NCBI GenBank assembly: GCA_903838705.1
Contig: CAILZL010000002.1
Span: 1-64,000 of the forward strand
Reading direction: 5' to 3'
Length of the DNA stretch: 64,000 nt
Source of the DNA: an uncultured Pseudomonadota bacterium
GTDB lineage: Bacteria; Pseudomonadota; Gammaproteobacteria; Steroidobacterales; Steroidobacteraceae
How positions within the stretch are numbered: position 1 is the first letter of the stretch; each line of letters begins with the position of its first letter. Under the pieces are notes generated by a model, which saw only the letters and a list, made by a program, of their open reading frames with translations, did no database searches and was not told the DNA's origin. The position numbers were made by a program, and so were the translations under genes. This document shows positions 21,642 through 37,645 of the stretch, in pieces.

Positions 21642-22184
21642 ATGCTTCAAAAAGAAACCCTGATCTATCAAGGGCGGGTAATTCAGCTGAACCTTGAAAG
21701 CGTCCGCCTGCCGAACCAGCGGGTAGCAGAGCTCGAAATCATCCATCATCCTGGCGGAGCCGCAATTGTGGCTCTCAATACTCAACAGCAAATCTGTCTT
21801 CTGTATCAATATCGTCACGCTGCAGGAGGATGGCTGTGGGAACTGCCTGCCGGGAAAATAGACAATCGAGAACCACACCTGCAAACCGCACAGCGCGAAT
21901 TACAGGAAGAAGCCGGCTGCCGTGCAGCGCACTGGCAGTATCTTGGCGAGTATTTCAGTTCGCCAGGCGTCTTTACCGAAGCAGTACATCTGTATCTGGC
22001 CAGCGACCTTGATCAGGTTGCAAATCAACCTGAAGAGCATGAAGTCTTTCAAGTTGAATGGCGTTCATATGAGGAAGCACTGGCCATGGCCTTTCGAGGT
22101 GAAATCAAGGATGGCAAGACGCTGGTTGGACTTTTTCTGGCTCAGCAATACATTCACAGCCAGTGCAGGGGCAACAGATCATGA
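21642..22184 (+). CDS. Nudix hydrolase, ADP-ribose pyrophosphatase-like
   Basis: A 180-residue Nudix protein. The Nudix box GKIDNREPHLQTAQRELQEEAGC lies at 71-93 (G-x5-E-x7-RE-x2-EE-x-G). The N-terminal LIYQGRVIQLNLESVRLPNQ and the GGAAIVAL strand, as well as the SSPGVFTEAVHLYLA segment after the box, match the ADP-ribose diphosphatase (NudF-like) subgroup, which cleaves ADP-ribose to AMP and ribose-5-phosphate. Cytosolic. Substrate is by analogy only. Confidence 0.86.
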   Translation: MLQKETLIYQGRVIQLNLESVRLPNQRVAELEIIHHPGGAAIVALNTQQQICLLYQYRHAAGGWLWELPAGKIDNREPHLQTAQRELQEEAGCRAAHWQYLGEYFSSPGVFTEAVHLYLASDLDQVANQPEEHEVFQVEWRSYEEALAMAFRGEIKDGKTLVGLFLAQQYIHSQCRGNRS

Positions 22185-24768: not shown

Positions 24769-25965
24769 ATGCTCTGGGCTTCCGTCAGCGCCACTGAACG
24801 GTCACTCACGCACGCCATTGCGCAGGCCGCTGATCGCCTGCTCGAAGCACTGGGCGGGCAGGAACCCGATCTGGTACTGATCTTTGTCAGCAGCCAGTAC
24901 CGCAATCACTTTGCCGCCCTGCCCGGCTTGTTACGTCGCGAATTTGATACCGCGCAGCTTGTGGGCTGTCTGGGCATGCGGGTCATCGGTGACGGACGCG
25001 AGTCGGCTGATCAAGCCACAATTGCCATGACAGGTGCCGTCCTGCCGGAGGTCGACCTGCATGCGGTGCATCTGGAACACGGTGCAACACCACCCGTATA
25101 TGCAGAACGACGTCTCTGGGACAACGTACTGCACTTACCCGGAGAACAGCCTGAATGCCAGATCCTGCTCGCCGACCCACACAGCTTCAACACCGAAACT
25201 TTGCTGAAGGCACTGGACCGGCAATATCCAAGCTGCGTGAAGCTGGGCGGCCTGGCCAGCGGAATGGAACAACCCGGTACGGCCTGTCTGCTATTGAATG
25301 AGCGCGTCTACAACGCTGGGGCACTATGTCTTTCCCTGTCTGGCAATCTGATCGTCGATACCATCGTCGCACAAGGGTGCCGCCCTATCGGCGAGCCCAT
25401 GTTTGCCAGTGCCACGCACGAGAACCTGATTCTGCAACTGGATGGCAAGATGCCGCGGGAAATCCTCACCGAGATGTATGAGAAGATTAAACGCAGTGAT
25501 CGCAAACTATTCACTGAAGCCCTGTTTCTTGGCATAGCTATGGAACAACACCGTGAGCAGTATCAGGCAGGTGATTTTCTCATTCGCTCCATTCTTGGCC
25601 TAGACCCGGACAGTGGCGCGCTACTGGTCAATACCCATGTGGCACCACATAGTGTGGTGCAATTGCATCTGCGTGATGCACAAGCCTCGGCACAGGATCT
25701 GGAGTTATTACTCAGCCAGTATCGGGCTACCAGCATTGAACATCCACCCAGCGGTGTATTGCTGTTTACCTGCGTCGGGCGCGGCGCTGAGTTTTATGGC
25801 CACCCAGATCATGATTGCAATGTATGCCGGCAACTGATTGGCGATCATCCGATAGGCGGCTTCTTCTGTAATGGTGAGATCGGACCGGTTCGCGGCATCA
25901 CTCATATGCATGGTTACAGCAGTGTGTTCGGCATGTTCCGCAGCAAAGTTCGCAATAACAATTAG
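24769..25965 (+). CDS. FIST domain protein (FIST-N plus FIST-C)
   Basis: A 398-residue protein covering both FIST domains. FIST-N (about 30-200) includes DLVLIFVSSQY and QLVGCLGMRVIG; FIST-C (about 220-385) includes LFLGIAMEQ, GDFLIRSILGLDPDSGALLV and the C-terminal GFFCNGEIGPV...MHGYSSVFGMF. FIST proteins are predicted intracellular small-ligand sensors, perhaps for amino acids, often linked to signalling outputs; none is fused here. AGGA precedes the ATG. Its end overlaps the convergent ATP-grasp gene by four bases. Confidence 0.88.
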   Translation: MLWASVSATERSLTHAIAQAADRLLEALGGQEPDLVLIFVSSQYRNHFAALPGLLRREFDTAQLVGCLGMRVIGDGRESADQATIAMTGAVLPEVDLHAVHLEHGATPPVYAERRLWDNVLHLPGEQPECQILLADPHSFNTETLLKALDRQYPSCVKLGGLASGMEQPGTACLLLNERVYNAGALCLSLSGNLIVDTIVAQGCRPIGEPMFASATHENLILQLDGKMPREILTEMYEKIKRSDRKLFTEALFLGIAMEQHREQYQAGDFLIRSILGLDPDSGALLVNTHVAPHSVVQLHLRDAQASAQDLELLLSQYRATSIEHPPSGVLLFTCVGRGAEFYGHPDHDCNVCRQLIGDHPIGGFFCNGEIGPVRGITHMHGYSSVFGMFRSKVRNNN

Positions 25966-26990
25966 CTGAGCAACTCTGCCTGATAGGCTTTACCCAATCT
26001 GATTATCCGTTCCAGCAAACTCGCATAATCATCCCCAGCATGTGCTGCCGAGGTGGCGAAATCTTCCTTCGCTGTCAGACAGGGATTGGCATTGGCTTCT
26101 AGCAGGAACAGCCTGCCTGCCTGCGACAGGCGGAAATCCATGCGGGCATACCCGGTCAACGACAGCGCGCGATAACCTCGTAATGCCATTGACCTGATCT
26201 CTTTTGTTATTGACGGAGCAAGGCGATGAGCAGCATGTGAGCCTATGACGTGCCTGTTTCTATAATTGCGATCCCATTTGGCCTTGCGTGTGGCAATGGC
26301 ATTACCATTCTTATCCGATGAGCCAAAATCCATTTCCCAGACTGGATAGGTTTGCGGTCTCTGATTGCCGATCACACCCACATAGAGTTCGCGACCGGGA
26401 ATAAATTCTTCCACCAGTGCATCAGACCCTGTCTGCTCATGGATAAAACCGACACGCTGCTTAAGCTTGCGCATGTCATGAACAATGGATGCCTGCGCAA
26501 TACCCAGTGAGGCATCATCTGATACGGATTTTACAAACAGAGGGAACTGCAACTCCGGCGGCAAAACGATGCGCTGCCCCCTGGTGAATACCACAAAGCC
26601 CGGTGTGGCAATTCCGTTGAACGACAGCAGCCGCTTTGATAAAGCCTTGTCACGAGACAACATCAGGCCACGTGGATTACAACCTGTATATGGCTGCCGC
26701 AGCAACTCCAGAAATGAAACAACATGCTGGTCATAACTGACCCTGCCCTGGAATTCTTCGGCCAGATTAAATGCGACATGAGGCCGCCAATCCTTGATAG
26801 CGGCAGTCAGCTCAGCCAGATTGTCTCCCAATCCCAGACAACGCACCTGATGACCTGACGATTTCAGTTGCTGGACCACATCATATTCAGTGCGGAACTC
26901 ATCAATCTGCTTCTGACTGACACCGGAAAGATTTTCCGGTGGCACCAGGGTTTCATGCATGAGCACCAGTATGCGTTGTGACTTCATCAT
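25962..26990 (-). CDS. ATP-grasp ligase, D-alanine-D-alanine ligase-like
   Basis: A 342-residue ATP-grasp enzyme. It shows the N-terminal domain (ILVLMHETLVPPENLSG), the ATP-binding lid (QFPLFVKSVSDDASLGIAQ), EEFIPGRELYVGVIG and the metal-binding end FLLEANANPCLTAKEDFA, which is like D-Ala-D-Ala ligases and related peptide ligases. It lacks Ddl's typical length, and the neighbours are not cell-wall genes, so it may ligate another carboxylate and amine. Its ATG follows immediately after the TGA of the phosphatase-ARH gene; it ends the four-gene SNF2 operon. Confidence 0.8.
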   Translation of the reverse strand: MMKSQRILVLMHETLVPPENLSGVSQKQIDEFRTEYDVVQQLKSSGHQVRCLGLGDNLAELTAAIKDWRPHVAFNLAEEFQGRVSYDQHVVSFLELLRQPYTGCNPRGLMLSRDKALSKRLLSFNGIATPGFVVFTRGQRIVLPPELQFPLFVKSVSDDASLGIAQASIVHDMRKLKQRVGFIHEQTGSDALVEEFIPGRELYVGVIGNQRPQTYPVWEMDFGSSDKNGNAIATRKAKWDRNYRNRHVIGSHAAHRLAPSITKEIRSMALRGYRALSLTGYARMDFRLSQAGRLFLLEANANPCLTAKEDFATSAAHAGDDYASLLERIIRLGKAYQAELLS

Positions 26991-28454
26991 TCAAGTCTGC
27001 GCATCGGATACTTCAAACAGCAAGCGTTCAGATAGTTTCAGCAATTCTTCAGCTCTGGGTAATGTCTCACGCCATACGATGGGCAAGCCCAGGACCCCAT
27101 ACAGCGCACCTGCCAGCGCACCACAGACCGCACCCACCACTGCGGGTCGAACGGAGTTGTGTATTGCCTTGAACACTGCATCCCGGAAGCTACTGGTGGT
27201 TGCCAGCGCATGACACGCGCTAGCCAGCACTGACAGACAGTCATCTGCTGCCGGATGGCTCATCGCAGTCCGCCAGCCGCCATTGATGAGATCTTCCAGC
27301 TCCGGCTTGAGCTTCAATGCACGCAAGGCTGCGGCTGCTTTGCCCGTATTGAATTGCAGCAACTTTGTAACGGGCACTCCTTCAAGTATGGAGAGCAGCA
27401 GTGCGGCGAATACCCGGCATGCATCCAGAACAATCGGTGCCTGAGATGTTGTCCGCGCCGACTCCGCTGACTCACGCAATGCAACTTCGGCTCTTGCGGA
27501 AAAAAACAGTGCCACCGGCACACACCTGACCAGCGGATGCGCATCTATCAATGCCGGATCATGAGAACCCGCCAGTGGATTGCGCTTCCATTGCCACAAC
27601 CCTAACGCTTTTTGCGCCATTTCAGGCAGAGTGCCAGCCACCGCCTGCGCGGTGTACTCCCCTTGCTTCTGACAAGCCAGATATCGCTGCATCTGATCTG
27701 CCGGCTGCTGCTGACGGCAATGCAACAAGCTATCGGCGATGGCCCATGCCATTGCAGCCGACCCACTCCATGCCGCACCGGAAAGATTGCTGATGGGCAA
27801 ACCATCAGCGGCAGATGCGCGCATGTCACCCAGCACATCTCCCAGCATCAACCCCAGCAGCGCACCTTGATATACGCCAAGACGTGGATCATCTCTTACC
27901 GGCAGTGTCGATCTGGCACGTTCATCTTTATATTCGAGAATGAATACCTCCTGTTCATCCGTTTCGGGCACATGCGGCCAGCGCTTGCTGCGCGCGCACT
28001 CAAGCCAGAACCTGTTCAAGGCTTCAACCGCTTCTATCGAGTCATGACCATGACGCACCAGATGACAGCCAATCACAGTGCCAGTGCGTCCAATGCCCGC
28101 CCGGCAATGCACATACACACATCCACCTGCATGGATCTCGGCATCTATTGCATCCAGTATCACGCTCATCTGTTGAATCGAATCCGGCACACCATGGTCA
28201 GTCAGAGTAAAGCGTTGATATCTGATCGACCTGCCACCGAATATCTCAGGCAGCCGTGCAACGTATGCCGGCAACTCGTGCTCAGCAGTAAGATCAATAA
28301 AACAAGTAACCCCTGCCAGCAACAGATCCTGGAGACGGATGGCTGACTCTTCGTCATTTGAGACCAGCGGATACTCACCAGCCAGCAACTGCTTCGGACG
28401 CACCCAGTAACTGTTAGGTAGCGGTTTCTTCGGCAATTCATTCACCTGCTTCAT
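26991..28454 (-). CDS. Fusion of a dual-specificity/tyrosine phosphatase and a degenerate ADP-ribosylglycohydrolase
   Basis: A 487-residue two-domain protein. Residues about 15-180 are a cysteine phosphatase with the P-loop HCRAGIGRTGT (nucleophile C117, R123) and a likely general acid D86. Residues about 193-485 resemble ADP-ribosylglycohydrolase (ARH/DraG), with the GALLGLMLGDVLG helix (G-x6-GD). However, the usual TDDT metal motif is WSGSAAMA (229-236), and the C-terminal GGDxDT motif is replaced by NSVRPAVVGA. The phosphatase looks active and the ARH part looks metal-free and probably non-catalytic. It overlaps the SWIM gene by 17 bases and abuts the ATP-grasp gene. Confidence 0.82.
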   Translation of the reverse strand: MKQVNELPKKPLPNSYWVRPKQLLAGEYPLVSNDEESAIRLQDLLLAGVTCFIDLTAEHELPAYVARLPEIFGGRSIRYQRFTLTDHGVPDSIQQMSVILDAIDAEIHAGGCVYVHCRAGIGRTGTVIGCHLVRHGHDSIEAVEALNRFWLECARSKRWPHVPETDEQEVFILEYKDERARSTLPVRDDPRLGVYQGALLGLMLGDVLGDMRASAADGLPISNLSGAAWSGSAAMAWAIADSLLHCRQQQPADQMQRYLACQKQGEYTAQAVAGTLPEMAQKALGLWQWKRNPLAGSHDPALIDAHPLVRCVPVALFFSARAEVALRESAESARTTSQAPIVLDACRVFAALLLSILEGVPVTKLLQFNTGKAAAALRALKLKPELEDLINGGWRTAMSHPAADDCLSVLASACHALATTSSFRDAVFKAIHNSVRPAVVGAVCGALAGALYGVLGLPIVWRETLPRAEELLKLSERLLFEVSDAQT

Positions 28455-29400
28455 GCTCCGACTGTTTGCTGCCGGACTGCTGCACCTGCCTGTGACGCAA
28501 TCCGCTTTTCTTTACACGTGCTTTCTTATCCGGTAAGGATACATTCCAGCGTTGCAGGTCAGGATTGATTTCGCTGGCCAGCTCTATCGCCATTTGCCTG
28601 GCCTGTGCCACGAGCGGAGCCAGTAACTCCTGCGGTGATTCTGTGAGTGTCCACGAAGCGGGTTTACCCAGACTGCGCAACAAAGCCCCGGGAACCGGGA
28701 GTGCATCAAAATCAAAACTGCCAATATTCAATGACTGCGGTTGCCGCTCGAAATTTTCTACAGACAGATCATTAAGTGATATCGCATTTTGCCATGCAGG
28801 AAGCGCCTCTTTGCCGTGCAGAAATTGATCAGGGACATGTCCGGAGCGTAAATGGCTCAAACCGGACAAAACCTGCTCCTTGCTGCGACCACGCAGCTCA
28901 AACAACAGAAATGGATCACGATCCAGCGCCTCACCCAGCACATAGTGTGTTGCGGCCACGTGTTTGCAGGGGCTGGACCAGTCTTCGCAACTGCAATCCG
29001 CATCCATGTCATGCAGGCTGGTCGGAAACAGGCTTTTACCGCAACTGTGAAACAGCCGGTCTATTTCCCGCGGCATTTCACCATTGAGCAATTGCCCCAC
29101 AAACAGAGCCTGCTCACTCATCGACTGCAGGATCTGCTGCCAGGCCTGGGGCGAAAACACCTCAAGCTGCAAACTGACCTGGTAGCTATCCAGATCATCA
29201 TCACTGACAAGGGCAACTACCTTACCTGCCGTGATCTTCAAGCCATGAACATGACCATCACGCGCATAGACACGACCCTTACCCAGTCTGGTAACCACAT
29301 CTCGCGAGCCGTGCTCCAATGCTTCAATCCAGCGCTGCCCCCACCAGGTACTGCCTGCAGCACGCGAACGCGTTTCATTTGCTTTTTGTGACTTATGCAT
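28438..29400 (-). CDS. SWIM zinc-finger protein partnered with SNF2 ATPase
   Basis: A 320-residue protein. The SWIM finger C-x-C-xn-C-x-H is at 136-147 (CSCEDWSSPCKHVAA), preceded by a segment (STWWGQRWIEALE... LGKGRVYARDG) typical of bacterial SWIM proteins next to SNF2 genes, and followed by a helical C-terminal half. SWIM fingers bind DNA or proteins. The ATG at 29400 overlaps the last codons of the SNF2 gene by eight bases, which implies coupled translation; the frame is open to 29439. It probably acts in a complex with the SNF2 protein. Confidence 0.88.
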   Translation of the reverse strand: MHKSQKANETRSRAAGSTWWGQRWIEALEHGSRDVVTRLGKGRVYARDGHVHGLKITAGKVVALVSDDDLDSYQVSLQLEVFSPQAWQQILQSMSEQALFVGQLLNGEMPREIDRLFHSCGKSLFPTSLHDMDADCSCEDWSSPCKHVAATHYVLGEALDRDPFLLFELRGRSKEQVLSGLSHLRSGHVPDQFLHGKEALPAWQNAISLNDLSVENFERQPQSLNIGSFDFDALPVPGALLRSLGKPASWTLTESPQELLAPLVAQARQMAIELASEINPDLQRWNVSLPDKKARVKKSGLRHRQVQQSGSKQSEHEAGE

Positions 29401-32400
29401 GACGAGTTCGCTTATGTGATCTTTTACCTGGGCGTTCAATCAACTCTTCAGGCTCATCGATATCCGGCACATCTCCGACTACCGCGTTTGGCGCCAGCGA
29501 GAACAATTCACGCAACTCATGATTATCCAGCTCGGTAATCCAGGCCTCCCCCTGCGTGACTACGCGGGCTGCCAGATCACGCTTTCCTTCCAGCATCTGG
29601 TCGATTTTTTCCTCAACGGTACCGGCGCAGAGCAACTTGTATACCTGCACGTTGCGCTGTTGCCCGATACGATAGGCACGGTCAGTTGCCTGATCTTCCA
29701 CTGCGGGATTCCACCAGCGATCGAAATGAAATACCGCCGTTGCCGCAGTCAGATTCAATCCGGTGCCACCGGCTTTCAGCGATATCACCAGCAGCTTTGA
29801 AGTATGGGCATCTTCCTGAAAACGTCGCACCATTTCCTCACGCGAGGCACGACTGACGCCGCCATGCAGGAAAGGAACATTCATGCCCTGCAAACGGGAC
29901 AGCGCCTGTGCAAGCCGCTCACCCATTTCGCGATACTGGGTAAAGATCAAAGCGCGATCACCTTCTGCCAGCACCTGCTCCACCATTTCCAGCAACCGGT
30001 CCAGTTTGCCGGAGCGGCCGACCAGCGGCCCCTGTTCACGCAGGTAGTGTGCCGGGTGATTACAGATCTGCTTGAGCGCTGTCAGCAACGCCAGTACACG
30101 ACCACGTCGGGCAATGCCATCTGCGCTTTCAATGTCCAGCAACGATTCATTGACAGCGCTTTGATAGAGACTGGCCTGTTCATGAGTCAATGAACAGAAC
30201 ACCTTGCTTTCCTGCTTGTCGGGCAGATCACTGATGACCTTGGGATCAGTTTTAACGCGACGCAGAATAAATGGCGCAACAGTTCGACGCAGACGCAATG
30301 CCACATCTTCACGTCCGTACCGCTCAACCGGAATGGCAATCTCACGACGGAAAGTTTCGCGTTTGCCCAGCAGACCAGGATTCAGGAATTCCATGATTGA
30401 CCACAACTCGGTCAGATGATTCTCTACTGGTGTACCGGTCAGCGCAATGCGCTCACTGGCGCGTAACGCCCGTGCAGCACGCGCAGTTGCTGAAACAGAG
30501 TTCTTGATGAACTGTGCTTCATCCAGCGTTACCACTGCATACTCGATATCCTGCAGCCACGGCAGATCCCGCCGTAACAAGCTATAGCTGGTAAGCACCA
30601 CCTTGCCACTTACCGCCGCCTGAAAGTCGTCGGCATTCTGGATGCGGTCTGCGCCGTAATGCCGCACTAGTGGCACGCCTGGCGCGAAACGCGCCATCTC
30701 GCGCTCCCAGTTACCGATGACTGAAGTAGGACACACCAGCAACACCGGCCGAAGGTCCTGTGCATGTAAAGCACGCCGGTGCAACAGATAGGCAAGCCAT
30801 TGCACCGTCTTGCCTAATCCCATGTCGTCCGCAAGACAGGCACCCAGACCTAATTGCGTGATTTGCACCAGCCAGCTCATGCCACGATTCTGATAATGCC
30901 GCAATTCAGCCTTCAGACCAGCAGGGGGTAACAGCTCGTTGATGACATCACGCGTGCGCATCTGTGCCACCAGCTCAGCCAGTCCATCTTCCGGAATGAC
31001 TTCAATGCGCAAGCCGGAATCCGGCTGGGTAATCGTTTCAGTCAATGCCAGCGACAGAGCCAGTGGCAAGCCAATACGACCAGCCCCGAATTTCTCATCA
31101 TTCTGAGCCAGCAGCTTTTCTGCGTGCAGCAACTCACGCTGATTCAACAGCACCCATTTGTTGTTGACCTGTGCCAGCGGGGCACGCAATTCCAGCAACG
31201 CTTCCAGATCACCCGTGTTCAGAACCTGTCCCGCCAGCACTGCCTGCCAGTAGTAAGGCAACTGTGACTGATTACCGGGCTTATTCGATCCGGCACCGAT
31301 GCGCATCTGCATACGCAATATCTGTCTATGCTCTGGTTGCAATACTTCCGGAAACTGCACCACGACCCCTGCCTGCTCCAGTGCGCTGACCTGCTGCAGC
31401 AATTCAAATACCATGCGTGGTTTCAACTGCATGGATTCAGGTCGCGATTTGCGTAATTCAGCTTCGATAAATGAATAACTGCGTGCCGCGATCGTCAGCA
31501 TTTGCAGCAGTTGTTCCTGCGCTACTCGCAATTCACAATGAAGTTGCTGCGCCGCCAGCTCACCCTGATTGAACAGGGTATGCGCACTGACCTGCTGCTC
31601 GGGCGCATCAATGGATTGCAAATCAAAATGCAGGGTGAACCCGGCCTCATCCGAAGCAGGCATCACAAGACGCAGGCATAACCGTAACGACTGTGCCGAT
31701 GCCAGTACCGGATGCACCCAGTCACGTAGCTCGGCCAATACGGAACGTTCCGCCATGCCACTGGGCACGAACTCAGCGTCACGACTGCTGAGTGCATCAC
31801 GCCAGCGCCTGCCCCACGGCACAGGCGACATGGCATTGGTCAAAACAGATTGGCGGCTCGTCTTACGTCTGGTGACGGGCAACTGCGCAGTGCGCACCAT
31901 TTGATCAGCCAGGGTATCGAGAAATTCACGCAACAATGCCGATGCAGTCCAGACCGGCAGGGCGTGATCGTCGCCCGCTCCACTCGCTGGAGCACCAAGA
32001 GGCACTGCATGTGCCGCCACGGGAAAAGCATTCGCCAGTTGATCAAACCGTTGCATGTCATGGGGCTGGTTCAACACCACACTCCAGCAAGCCGCCTGTA
32101 TGCCATCCTGTTTGTGCACACGCGGCACGAATTGCTCGCGTGCGACCAGCTCCAGACCCAGCTTGGATGCCAGACTCCACACCGCGACCGAGGCTGCAAG
32201 ATCGGGTAATTCAGCCTGTTTGATGGCGGCCAGCTGCACCACCCCCTCCAGTAAGGGCAAGCGGTAACCACGCACCCGACGCAGGCACAGCTTCTCATCC
32301 GGAATGACGCGCGAGGTAGGTTCCCCCAATATTGCAAGGGGACTCTGCGCTGCTTCACTACCCCATAACAGCCAGTGCGCACGCTGATAATCCGGCACAA

Positions 32401-32482
32401 ACAGCAAATGCACACCCACTGGCACTGGCGCAACGGCGACAGACTCGGCTGTGACTTCACTATTCAGATTGGGTTCGATCAT
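29393..32482 (-). CDS. SNF2-family DEAD/DEAH helicase (RapA/HepA-like DNA translocase)
   Basis: A 1029-residue SWI2/SNF2 ATPase. Residues about 1-520 are a long N-terminal region typical of bacterial SNF2 proteins paired with SWIM partners. The ATPase core has DDMGLGKTVQWLAYLL (motif I), the DEAQ box (VTLDEAQFIKN), ALTGTPVENHLTELWS (motif III), and helicase-C blocks with GGVSR..., SLKAGGTGLNLTAAT and DRAYRIGQQRNVQVYKL (motif VI). It translocates on duplex DNA and may remodel nucleoprotein. The TTG immediately before the ATG at 32482 is ignored. It heads a tight four-gene operon. Confidence 0.95.
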   Translation of the reverse strand: MIEPNLNSEVTAESVAVAPVPVGVHLLFVPDYQRAHWLLWGSEAAQSPLAILGEPTSRVIPDEKLCLRRVRGYRLPLLEGVVQLAAIKQAELPDLAASVAVWSLASKLGLELVAREQFVPRVHKQDGIQAACWSVVLNQPHDMQRFDQLANAFPVAAHAVPLGAPASGAGDDHALPVWTASALLREFLDTLADQMVRTAQLPVTRRKTSRQSVLTNAMSPVPWGRRWRDALSSRDAEFVPSGMAERSVLAELRDWVHPVLASAQSLRLCLRLVMPASDEAGFTLHFDLQSIDAPEQQVSAHTLFNQGELAAQQLHCELRVAQEQLLQMLTIAARSYSFIEAELRKSRPESMQLKPRMVFELLQQVSALEQAGVVVQFPEVLQPEHRQILRMQMRIGAGSNKPGNQSQLPYYWQAVLAGQVLNTGDLEALLELRAPLAQVNNKWVLLNQRELLHAEKLLAQNDEKFGAGRIGLPLALSLALTETITQPDSGLRIEVIPEDGLAELVAQMRTRDVINELLPPAGLKAELRHYQNRGMSWLVQITQLGLGACLADDMGLGKTVQWLAYLLHRRALHAQDLRPVLLVCPTSVIGNWEREMARFAPGVPLVRHYGADRIQNADDFQAAVSGKVVLTSYSLLRRDLPWLQDIEYAVVTLDEAQFIKNSVSATARAARALRASERIALTGTPVENHLTELWSIMEFLNPGLLGKRETFRREIAIPVERYGREDVALRLRRTVAPFILRRVKTDPKVISDLPDKQESKVFCSLTHEQASLYQSAVNESLLDIESADGIARRGRVLALLTALKQICNHPAHYLREQGPLVGRSGKLDRLLEMVEQVLAEGDRALIFTQYREMGERLAQALSRLQGMNVPFLHGGVSRASREEMVRRFQEDAHTSKLLVISLKAGGTGLNLTAATAVFHFDRWWNPAVEDQATDRAYRIGQQRNVQVYKLLCAGTVEEKIDQMLEGKRDLAARVVTQGEAWITELDNHELRELFSLAPNAVVGDVPDIDEPEELIERPGKRSHKRTRHA

Positions 32483-32881
32483 CAAGTACGCAGTATCCGG
32501 GAGTTAAGACCATCGGCAATCATGAACCAAGAATCAACGGGACACACTAATTTCTGACCTTAAACTTTCTGCGTAACATGTAACAGTGACAAGCAGCCCA
32601 ATATGATTTCGCGACAGAGCTCACTTATTTTCCCAGCTGACGACAGCCTGCTTTAAGGATATTGGGTGACCCGCCCGCAAACCGGCCCGACATCTGCAAT
32701 ATATGCCGCCAGCCGGGATTGAAGCCTACGCAGGCAATCTGCATGGCAGGTAGCCAGCGGATATCACGGCATGCAACGATGTTCAGACGGAACAGCATCT
32801 CTCTTGCTGGAGTTTTTCAAACAGACCACGGTTCAAACAGAGACCGGCCTTGAATGTGTCTGTCTGTTCTTGAATAAGAAC
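32483..32881. other. About 400-base gap upstream of the SNF2 operon
   Basis: No gene is supported; a plus-strand frame that enters the region is antisense to the lipoprotein gene at 32933-33253. The stretch next to 32482 should hold the SNF2 operon promoter, but no clear -35/-10 pair could be assigned. The right end leads into the hairpin at 32882-32913. Confidence 0.5.
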
Positions 32882-32932: not shown

Positions 32933-33253
32933 TTACTTCATATCGAAGTTGGCAGTACGTACGTCGGTGTAACCCTGAGCTCTGATTGTCTCGGCAATTT
33001 TACCAAGCGAGCGGTCATCTTTTGGCAGAGGGTCAATGCCAACCGCAGAGACGACCACCCGACGTCCGCTATTTATCTTAAGTGTGTCGTGAATATAGGC
33101 CGCGATCTCACCACACTTCATCATCTGCTTTTCGATGCCGCATTGCTGACGTGACGGATAGACCGCCACAATGACAGATTCTTCTTCCTGAAATTCACAA
33201 GCGGACAGAGCCGGAAGCAGACCGACAGCCAACAGGCATATTGTTAACTTCAT
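32933..33253 (-). CDS. Small lipoprotein of unknown function
   Basis: A 106-residue protein with a signal peptide ending in LSAC (lipobox, C about 19). The mature part has four further cysteines' worth of spacing at QCGIEKQMMKCGEI and a compact alpha/beta-like pattern (YIHDTLKINSGRRVVVSAVG). GAGGG lies eight bases before the ATG at 33253, which is preferred over the longer frame (to 33325). It lies between the SNF2 operon and cstA-ybdD, and a terminator follows. The short block SGRRVVVSAVGID recalls ExbD-type periplasmic domains, but this is only a weak resemblance. Confidence 0.65.
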   Translation of the reverse strand: MKLTICLLAVGLLPALSACEFQEEESVIVAVYPSRQQCGIEKQMMKCGEIAAYIHDTLKINSGRRVVVSAVGIDPLPKDDRSLGKIAETIRAQGYTDVRTANFDMK

Positions 33254-33297
33254 GAATGTACCCTCGCCCCCGCTTATCGGCATGGGCAGACGAAACT

Positions 33298-33477
33298 TCA
33301 GCAGCAGCGCTTCACACCATTCCATTTGCGTTGCTGTTCGGCCAGATAAAAGGCGCGACGATCCAGCGTAGCCTGCCCGGCATGATGCTGCTGATGATGC
33401 AACAGGTAACGCTCATAGGCGTCATCGCCGGTGAGCTGGCGTAACAAGGTAAAACACCTGTAGAACCAGCTGCGCAT
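33298..33477 (-). CDS. ybdD: YbdD/YjiX family small protein
   Basis: A 59-residue protein of the DUF466 (YbdD/YjiX) family, which sits next to CstA-type transporters. It has the typical pattern: DAYERYLLHHQQHHAG, RRAFYLAEQQ and the diagnostic end RCC. It starts two bases after the cstA stop (TGA-TC-ATG), so it is co-translated with cstA. Believed to be an accessory of the pyruvate/peptide transporter; mechanism unknown. Confidence 0.9.
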   Translation of the reverse strand: MRSWFYRCFTLLRQLTGDDAYERYLLHHQQHHAGQATLDRRAFYLAEQQRKWNGVKRCC

Positions 33478-35595: not shown

Positions 35596-36597
35596 CTACT
35601 TGTCAGCCTGCTGTGAGGGAGATTCAAGCCCACGAGAGTACAGCACCTTGCCTTCAGGTGTCACCAGAATGGCATCGACATCCTCCAGCTGATTATAGAT
35701 CTGCATCGCGGCTTCAGGCCCCAGCACAAACGCTGTCTTGGACAAGCCATCGGTACGTAGCGCCGTAGATGCAATGATCGTGGCACTGCGTACCTTGCTG
35801 GCTGGCTTGCCGGTGCCGGGATCAATGATATGGTGATAACGTGTGCCGTTCTCATCAAAGTAGCGTTCGTAATCTCCTGAAGTAGACAGCGCAGTATCTG
35901 CAAGGGGAATCTTCGCGATGACCTTGCTGGCATCATCAGGATGACGGATTCCAACTACCCATGGTTTGCCAAAGCGATCACCGATGATACGGCTGTCGCC
36001 GCCAGCCGTGACCAATGCATGGGTAATGCCACGCTGCTGCAATATCGCAATGCCACGATCCACGGCGTAACCCTTGGCAATACCGCCCAGATCAATCCGC
36101 ACGCCCGATTGCGAGAACCTGATGGTCTGCTGTCCGGCATCGAGTATCAGATGCCGGTAATTGACCGCAGGCAACGCTGCCGCAATCTGCTTGTCATCCG
36201 GTCTTTCATGTTTACGGAATTCATACATGAATCCGACACTGGCGTAGGTGATATCGAAGGCACCATGGGTGATACGGGAGAACTCCACCGCCTGTGTCAG
36301 CAGATCAAACAGCTCCCTGGTAATCTTCACCGGATGCTGTGCAGCTTGCGCATTCACACGGGACACTTCGCTGGTGGACTTGTAAGTACTCATTGAGTCA
36401 TCAAGTCGCCGCATTTCGGCAAGCACAGCATCAATGGCTGTATTCCCCTGCGCAGCGGTATCAGTCCACACCTCGACGGTGATGCGCGTACCCATGATGC
36501 CATCGACAACACGGTCTACCCATTCAGCATGGGCACTGGCAGAAATCATGCCCAGCAACAATGCCAGCCATATCCTCCAGCCAGAACAAAGGTTCAA
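35596..36597 (-). CDS. apbE: FAD:protein FMN transferase (ApbE)
   Basis: A 333-residue exported ApbE that attaches FMN to threonine in periplasmic flavoproteins such as NqrB/C. A signal peptide (to about 24, SAHA) precedes the ApbE domain, with [30 protein letters not shown] and the metal-binding C-terminal block TSGDYERYF...[12 protein letters not shown]. It starts with TTG at 36597, overlapping the ttcA stop as TTGA, so it is coupled to ttcA. Confidence 0.93.
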
Positions 36598-37469
36598 GGC
36601 AACTCCGCTGCTGCATCCGGTTCGGTGACTGCAAAACTGGCCAGCAGCTCCGGCGTAATCTCGCGCAGACTCCGCAATGACCGGAAATCAAATTTACCTG
36701 GATCAGCCAGGTGCGAAGGCACAACATTACAAAGCGCCGAGAATATCGACTCACTGCGCCCGGGATATTCCACCTCCCACTGTCTCAGCATGTTCTTGAT
36801 CACCCGTCGCTGCATGTTTTCCTGTGACCCACACAGATTGCAGGGAATAATCGGGAACTTGCGCGCCGTGGCATAGCGCTCAATCTCCCGTTCAGCCACA
36901 TAGGCCATAGGCCGGATGACAATGTTGCGCCCATCCTCGGATAGCAGCTTCGGCGGCATGGCTTTCAACTTGCCGCCAAAGAAAAGATTAAGGAACAGCG
37001 TTTCAATGATGTCATCACGATGATGTCCCAACGCAATCTTGGTGATGCCATTCGCAGCAGCATAGGTGTACAGTGAGCCGCGCCGCAGCCGTGAACACAG
37101 TCCACACATGGTCTTGCCCTCGGGCACCACTCGCTTGACCACGCTGTACGTATCCTGCTCAAGAATGTGGTAAGGCACGCCCAGTGACTCAAGATACTCG
37201 GGCAGGATGTGCGCTGGATAATCCGGTTGTTTCTGATCGAGGTTTACTGCGATCAGTTCAAAATCCACCGGCGCACGCCGCTGCAGTGATAGCAGCATGT
37301 CGAGCATGGTGTAGGAATCTTTACCGCCTGACAGGCATACCATGACCTTGTCACCCGCTTCAATCATGCCGAAGTCTTCAATAGCCTTACCGACCTGACC
37401 ACGGATCTGCGCTTGCAGCTTCTTGAAGTTGTTGGACATCGACTCTGGCTTGTCTAAAACGGCATTCAT
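36594..37469 (-). CDS. ttcA: tRNA 2-thiocytidine(32) synthetase TtcA
   Basis: A 291-residue cytosolic enzyme that thiolates cytidine-32 in some tRNAs. The PP-loop SGGKDSYTM binds ATP, and the iron-sulfur and catalytic cysteine pairs CGLC and CNLC are present, with [20 protein letters not shown] between them. The C-terminal block includes [16 protein letters not shown] and [15 protein letters not shown]. The start is uncertain: ATG 37469 is used, ATG 37439 (MSNNFKKLQ) is also plausible and a TTG lies further up at 37505. It precedes apbE with a four-base overlap. Confidence 0.94.
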
Positions 37470-37645
37470 ACGCAGGCACTCAACAACCAATACATGAGAA
37501 CTCAATCAAACCGGTCACCGGCATGGACAGAACATAGCAATATTGTCAGCCACTGACCGGCCAGGAAGCACGACTTTCGACAATCCCTGTCCATCCGGTT
37601 CTGCCAATCGACTTCGGGCAGGAGAGCCGGTCAGATATTGTTAAT

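Follow-up and report, generated by a model that had tools for sequence, protein, structure and literature searches.

A genus-specific operon of aquatic Steroidobacteraceae that probably joins a SNF2-SWIM pair to the remnant of a conserved ligase cluster

SNF2 and SWIM genes form a known gene pair, as the first-pass annotation of the locus considered here had rightly stated, and a stand-alone copy is carried by a Halococcus plasmid. For the fusion of a phosphatase to an ARH-like domain, the nearest published idea is that of the ARG-phosphatase conflict systems, a part of which also contain a Nudix-HTH or WYL regulator and a peptide-binding chaperone (PMC9503650). A precedent for an ATP-grasp gene beside an ARG gene is the linkage of R2K ATP-grasp and ARG genes in firmicutes (PMC4431377). 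Human ARH3 binds metal through Thr76, Asp77, Asp78, Asp314, Asp316, and Thr317, and replacement of any one of the four Asp by Ala leaves it inactive on Ser-ADP-ribose (PMC8141533). In the literature searched, no description was found of SNF2, SWIM, ATP-grasp, and ARG together, nor of a peptidase/ATP-grasp module, although a survey of the rhodanese-phosphatase superfamily by Burroughs and Aravind may cover part of this.

The locus lies within a stretch of 64,000 nucleotides (hereafter the window) from contig C2. The genome measures 2.74 Mb, and its relatives belong to the Steroidobacteraceae. The genes needed for the argument are the following:

29393..32482, minus strand: SNF2 gene, a DUF3670-SNF2 helicase/translocase starting with ATG at 32482 (alternative start TTG at 32485)
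28438..29400, minus strand: SWIM zinc-finger gene of 320 aa, starting with ATG at 29400
26991..28454, minus strand: phosphatase-ARH gene, a Cys-phosphatase (DSP/PTP-SAK type) fused to an ADP-ribosylglycohydrolase-fold domain
25962..26990, minus strand: ATP-grasp gene, a ligase of a conserved Ddl-like family, distinct from housekeeping Ddl
24769..25965, plus strand: FIST-domain gene, convergent with the operon and marking its end, assigned by Pfam and found in the same place in all genus members
36594..37505, minus strand: TtcA (tRNA 2-thiocytidine PP-loop protein), 73% identical to the TtcA beside the cluster in locus L042

The four minus-strand reading frames lie where they had first been placed, and their junctions are as tight as claimed: SNF2 (end 29393) and SWIM, taken from its ATG at 29400, overlap by 8 bases, SWIM (end 28438) and phosphatase-ARH (start 28454) by 17, and phosphatase-ARH ends at 26991, abutting the ATP-grasp start at 26990. 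A feature overlooked in the first reading is that the ATP-grasp stop and the end of the convergent FIST-domain gene share 4 bases, so that the unit stops there. Scans for promoters and terminators carried no information, with a single promoter-like site where chance alone would give 5.8 and nine terminator-like sites where it would give 6.7. Between CstA and SNF2, there is also a 130-aa open reading frame (32933-33325, minus strand) with no Pfam or NCBIfam match. The domain calls for all four genes were upheld by Pfam: SNF2-rel_dom (2.3e-66), Helicase_C (1e-20), and DUF3670 (7e-18) in the SNF2 protein, ADP_ribosyl_GH (2.3e-23) and PTP-SAK (1e-14) in the phosphatase-ARH protein, and Dala_Dala_lig_C (1e-26) in the ATP-grasp protein, the last bearing out its description as ligase-like; only the SWIM match is marginal (7.5e-4; 19.4 bits against a cut-off of 19.6).

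The operon was compared in the window and in three other genomes of the genus, G001 (locus L026), G002 (L066), and G003 (L040), whose proteins are about 58–79% identical and whose loci are bounded by CstA upstream and FIST/MetC downstream. The order is SNF2-SWIM-PTP-ARH-ATP-grasp in G001 and SNF2-SWIM-PTP-ATP-grasp in G003, where the phosphatase has no ARH domain; in G002 it is SNF2-SWIM-ATP-grasp, with the phosphatase-ARH gene wholly absent and SWIM overlapping ATP-grasp by ATGA. The phosphatase-ARH protein is thus dispensable within the genus. Overlaps of 4–8 bases, their length depending on the start codon chosen, recur at the SNF2/SWIM junction and at the junction of SWIM with the next gene, whereas the phosphatase/ATP-grasp junction is looser (a gap of about 7–10 bases in G001 and 48 in G003). 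The recurrence of the order SNF2-SWIM-(PTP-(ARH))-ATP-grasp with short overlaps in three other genomes is beyond chance. Since the tight coupling persists across the genus, this is in all likelihood a true genus-level operon, which agrees with the operon of the first reading, and the overlaps and conserved order speak strongly for transcription as a single unit. Most of the genomes compared are draft MAGs, so single-gene absences are less sure than presences.

Outside the genus, a different association is conserved. Among 59 relatives searched, 40 carry a phosphatase and/or ARH match, and the ATP-grasp gene stands beside phosphatase/ARH in 29 of 33 same-family loci (the window excluded), in 22 of which a Zn-peptidase gene is placed between phosphatase-ARH and ATP-grasp; two of the four exceptions are at contig ends. 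Upstream, relatives usually have an M32 carboxypeptidase gene followed by TtcA and then phosphatase-ARH, and the conserved Steroidobacteraceae cluster is TtcA / phosphatase-ARH / Zn-peptidase / ATP-grasp. A wider set of 80 named loci was taken from GTDB genomes, and the 64 with at least 3.5 kb upstream were counted: the peptidase directly precedes ATP-grasp in 53, phosphatase and/or ARH is present in 55, and SNF2-SWIM is beside the cluster in three, all from the window's genus. From nine other families (eight of the same class and one more of the phylum), 14 loci were sampled; all 14 have the peptidase/ATP-grasp pair, and none has phosphatase, ARH, SNF2, or SWIM. In every sampled locus outside the family (L165-L178, L146-L148), the gene directly upstream of Ddl-like ATP-grasp encodes a PF15887-like zincin, and no other neighbour is conserved. 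Stand-alone phosphatase genes, related to the phosphatase domain of the window and without adjoining ARH or ATP-grasp, were seen in other families of the order (L056-L059, L061, L062). A NUDIX hydrolase gene (21642-22184, plus strand) lies about 3.8 kb past ATP-grasp in the window, and a relative of it is near the cluster in 44 of the 80 named loci.

In the window, TtcA, ancestrally the gene upstream of phosphatase-ARH, is still found upstream, with ApbE, CstA, the small ORF, and SNF2-SWIM now in between, and comparison with the usual order suggests that these genes were inserted between TtcA and phosphatase-ARH in an ancestor of the genus. SNF2-SWIM adjoins the cluster in all four sampled genomes of the genus, and the Zn-peptidase is missing there. 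A search of the window's whole genome did not recover the Zn-peptidase, which was found in the positive control G005. On the tree of 95 ATP-grasp proteins, no fewer than five changes are needed to account for the peptidase-free loci, which means that the peptidase was lost several times.

The first-pass annotation had read the four genes as one functional system, a view that it held would fail if they are rarely together in other genomes. Such a system within the genus would use SNF2-SWIM to move on DNA, while the ligase, regulated by the phosphatase/pseudo-ARH protein, would modify either the SNF2-SWIM complex or some protein bound to DNA. It is favoured by the order and the 4–17 base overlaps preserved in four genomes, and by G002, in which SNF2-SWIM and ATP-grasp are still joined although phosphatase-ARH is gone. 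However, by its own yardstick the view fails, since other genomes seldom have the four genes together: in the loci sampled outside the genus, SNF2-SWIM is never beside the others. All other lineages seen have the ligase but no SNF2-SWIM next to it, there are SNF2-SWIM pairs that lack the ligase, and phosphatase-ARH is absent in G002. Moreover, the arrangement has a single origin, the four genus members forming one clade of the ATP-grasp tree (support 100/99), and the four genomes are therefore not independent. We regard a single system as unlikely.

The explanation that we favour, with a probability of roughly 0.6, is that this is a genus-specific operon of aquatic Steroidobacteraceae made of two units with separate histories, a ligase remnant and a SNF2-SWIM translocase. 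The first unit would be what is left of the conserved phosphatase-ARH / Zn-peptidase / ATP-grasp cluster. In it, the ATP-grasp enzyme would most likely form an amide bond between a carboxylate, by way of an acyl-phosphate, and the amine of a peptide or amino acid; the partner zincin of other lineages would most likely cut a related bond, and the window's lineage keeps the ligase without the peptidase. The second unit would be a SNF2-SWIM DNA-translocase pair, free-standing elsewhere and here presumably co-transcribed with the first. Sharing of a transcript by SNF2-SWIM and the ligase may be regulatory or accidental. Against the two-unit reading counts the coupling of SNF2-SWIM to ATP-grasp in four of four genus members at 58–79% protein identity; this persistence, together with the ATGA overlap of SWIM and ATP-grasp in G002, could reflect cooperation of the units.

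The ATP-grasp protein is the most constant part of the locus, with a mean column identity of 72% in 18 homologues. One could suppose that it is a Ddl- or Van-like enzyme that ligates D-amino acids to make cell-wall precursors, and that the lost zincin was its dipeptidase; homology to Ddl and Van ligases as well as the pairing of ligase with peptidase agree with this. However, the protein falls far under every curated Ddl/Van cut-off (126.3 against 243 bits for the best of 36 models), and a better Ddl match is present on contig C19, next to an ORF that is MurB-like by inspection. Alignment of the two shows that the nucleotide-binding (ATP/acyl-phosphate) residues agree. The segment GMTSHSL of the C19 protein, the established D-Ala-2 binding motif of Ddl, reads CLTAKED in the window enzyme, which thus does not carry the pocket pattern GMTxxSL; the E-D that replaces it is invariant in the family, and a different second substrate is inferred from this substitution. 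The zincin, in turn, is PF15887-like (E 1.5e-7; HEAGH), outside the VanX and VanY families. On these grounds, the enzyme is not the housekeeping D-Ala-D-Ala ligase, and a role in cell-wall precursor synthesis appears improbable.

A structure search with the peptidase gave no significant match, the best being M34/PPEP-type zincins at E 0.39. Across the Pseudomonadota, ten or more families contain the two-gene module of Zn-peptidase and Ddl-like ATP-grasp, which is a lead worth keeping. A speculative and rather unlikely extension is that the ligase and the PF15887-like zincin form an undescribed write/erase pair for a peptide-like tag. In this genus, on that view, the eraser would have been lost, the ARH domain would have turned into a pseudoenzyme that binds, and the ligase would have been coupled anew to the SNF2-SWIM DNA translocase.

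The phosphatase-ARH protein consists of a phosphatase domain (residues about 10–180), in which HCRAGIGR is intact, and an ARH-fold domain (about 190–480). Across 30 homologues, there is no variation at H116, C117, G120, G122, R123, or D86, the last being the presumed general acid, and on this pattern the phosphatase still looks catalytically competent. The AlphaFold2 model of the ARH domain is confident (pLDDT 91.6) and matches 2cwc, DraG, and ARH3 (Foldseek against Thermus 2cwc: E 3.5e-12, TM 0.84), so that both the Pfam match and the model place the domain in the ADP-ribosylglycohydrolase fold. Aligned with 2cwc and relatives, the S/T-D-D-T motif, DDTA in relatives, reads SGSA in the window, and the C-terminal D-x-D region, GGDSDV in relatives, reads SVRPAV; the corresponding motifs in G001 are GNAA and TQPAV. 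All four metal-binding Asp of the binuclear site (T-D-D and D-x-D-T), which correspond to the Asp ligands of ARH3, are therefore gone in the window protein, which removes the ADP-ribose-erasing step that had been proposed and contradicts erasure by this domain. The window's ARH domain would then be a pseudoenzyme, serving at most for binding or as a scaffold. The second motif is commonly eroded in the family, and both are lost in several other lineages. Between the window and G001, identity in the ARH half still reaches 67%, similar to SWIM and SNF2, which suggests that it is retained as a protein with some function and is not freely decaying, a point against the two-unit reading; dS between the two is saturated. 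A clear series from decay to loss of the ARH domain can thus be followed within one genus, from the dead site of the window and G001 to G003 and G002. In G026, there is a second, free-standing ARH gene (L065:6581-7567), which differs from most fused copies in that its site, DDT and DADT, is intact.

These data also bear on the idea of an ARG-phosphatase conflict system, which would strip host proteins of the ADP-ribose that phage enzymes attach to them (proposed for related neighbourhoods in PMC9503650). The ARG coupled to a phosphatase is present here as a fusion in one protein, and fusion of an ARG fold to a member of the rhodanese-phosphatase superfamily is typical of the neighbourhoods described (PMC9503650). 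On the other side are the loss of all four metal-binding Asp and the complete loss of phosphatase-ARH in G002; the operon is also without a Nudix-HTH or WYL regulator and without a chaperone, the NUDIX gene of the window being a plain one on the other strand. We consider this explanation very improbable.

In the SNF2 protein, the motor motifs DDMGLGKT, DEAQ, and QATDRAYRIGQ are intact. Its orthologues in the three genus members are 64–73% identical, and the next best match is about 44%. SNF2-SWIM pairs are also present in G012 and G020, but on contigs other than those of the cluster. SNF2-SWIM and the genes around it do not differ in base composition and thus show no sign of a recent transfer. 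The suggestion of the first-pass annotation that the locus might be defensive gained no support: the PADLOC matches were confined to the SNF2 protein, over its generic helicase/motor region, none of the Zorya, DISARM, or Dpd partner genes in the PADLOC models was found beside the helicase, and the flanking genes are housekeeping ones.

When set beside the known SNF2-SWIM pairs of bacteria and archaea, the window agrees in domain make-up, in order (the SWIM gene comes after that of the SNF2 motor and overlaps it, the SWIM score being marginal), and in the shortness of the overlap (4 bases on the Halococcus plasmid), but its pair is followed by phosphatase-ARH and ATP-grasp, whereas other copies seen adjoin unrelated genes. 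The ARG-centric systems (PMC9503650) resemble it in the fusion of a phosphatase to an ARG/ARH domain and in an operon without ADP-ribosyltransferase; the window differs in the lost ARH site and in the coupling to ATP-grasp and, in relatives, to a zincin. As in the R2K linkage (PMC4431377), a gene for an ATP-grasp peptide-ligase-like enzyme adjoins an ARG gene; however, R2K is a different ATP-grasp family, and its linkage includes neither phosphatase nor zincin. With the ADP-ribosylglycohydrolases (Thermus 2cwc, DraG, and ARH3), the window protein has the fold in common but not the metal-binding Asp. With Ddl, the window enzyme shares the ATP-grasp fold and the ATP/acyl-phosphate residues, but its second-substrate motif is replaced and the genome has a separate, stronger Ddl match.
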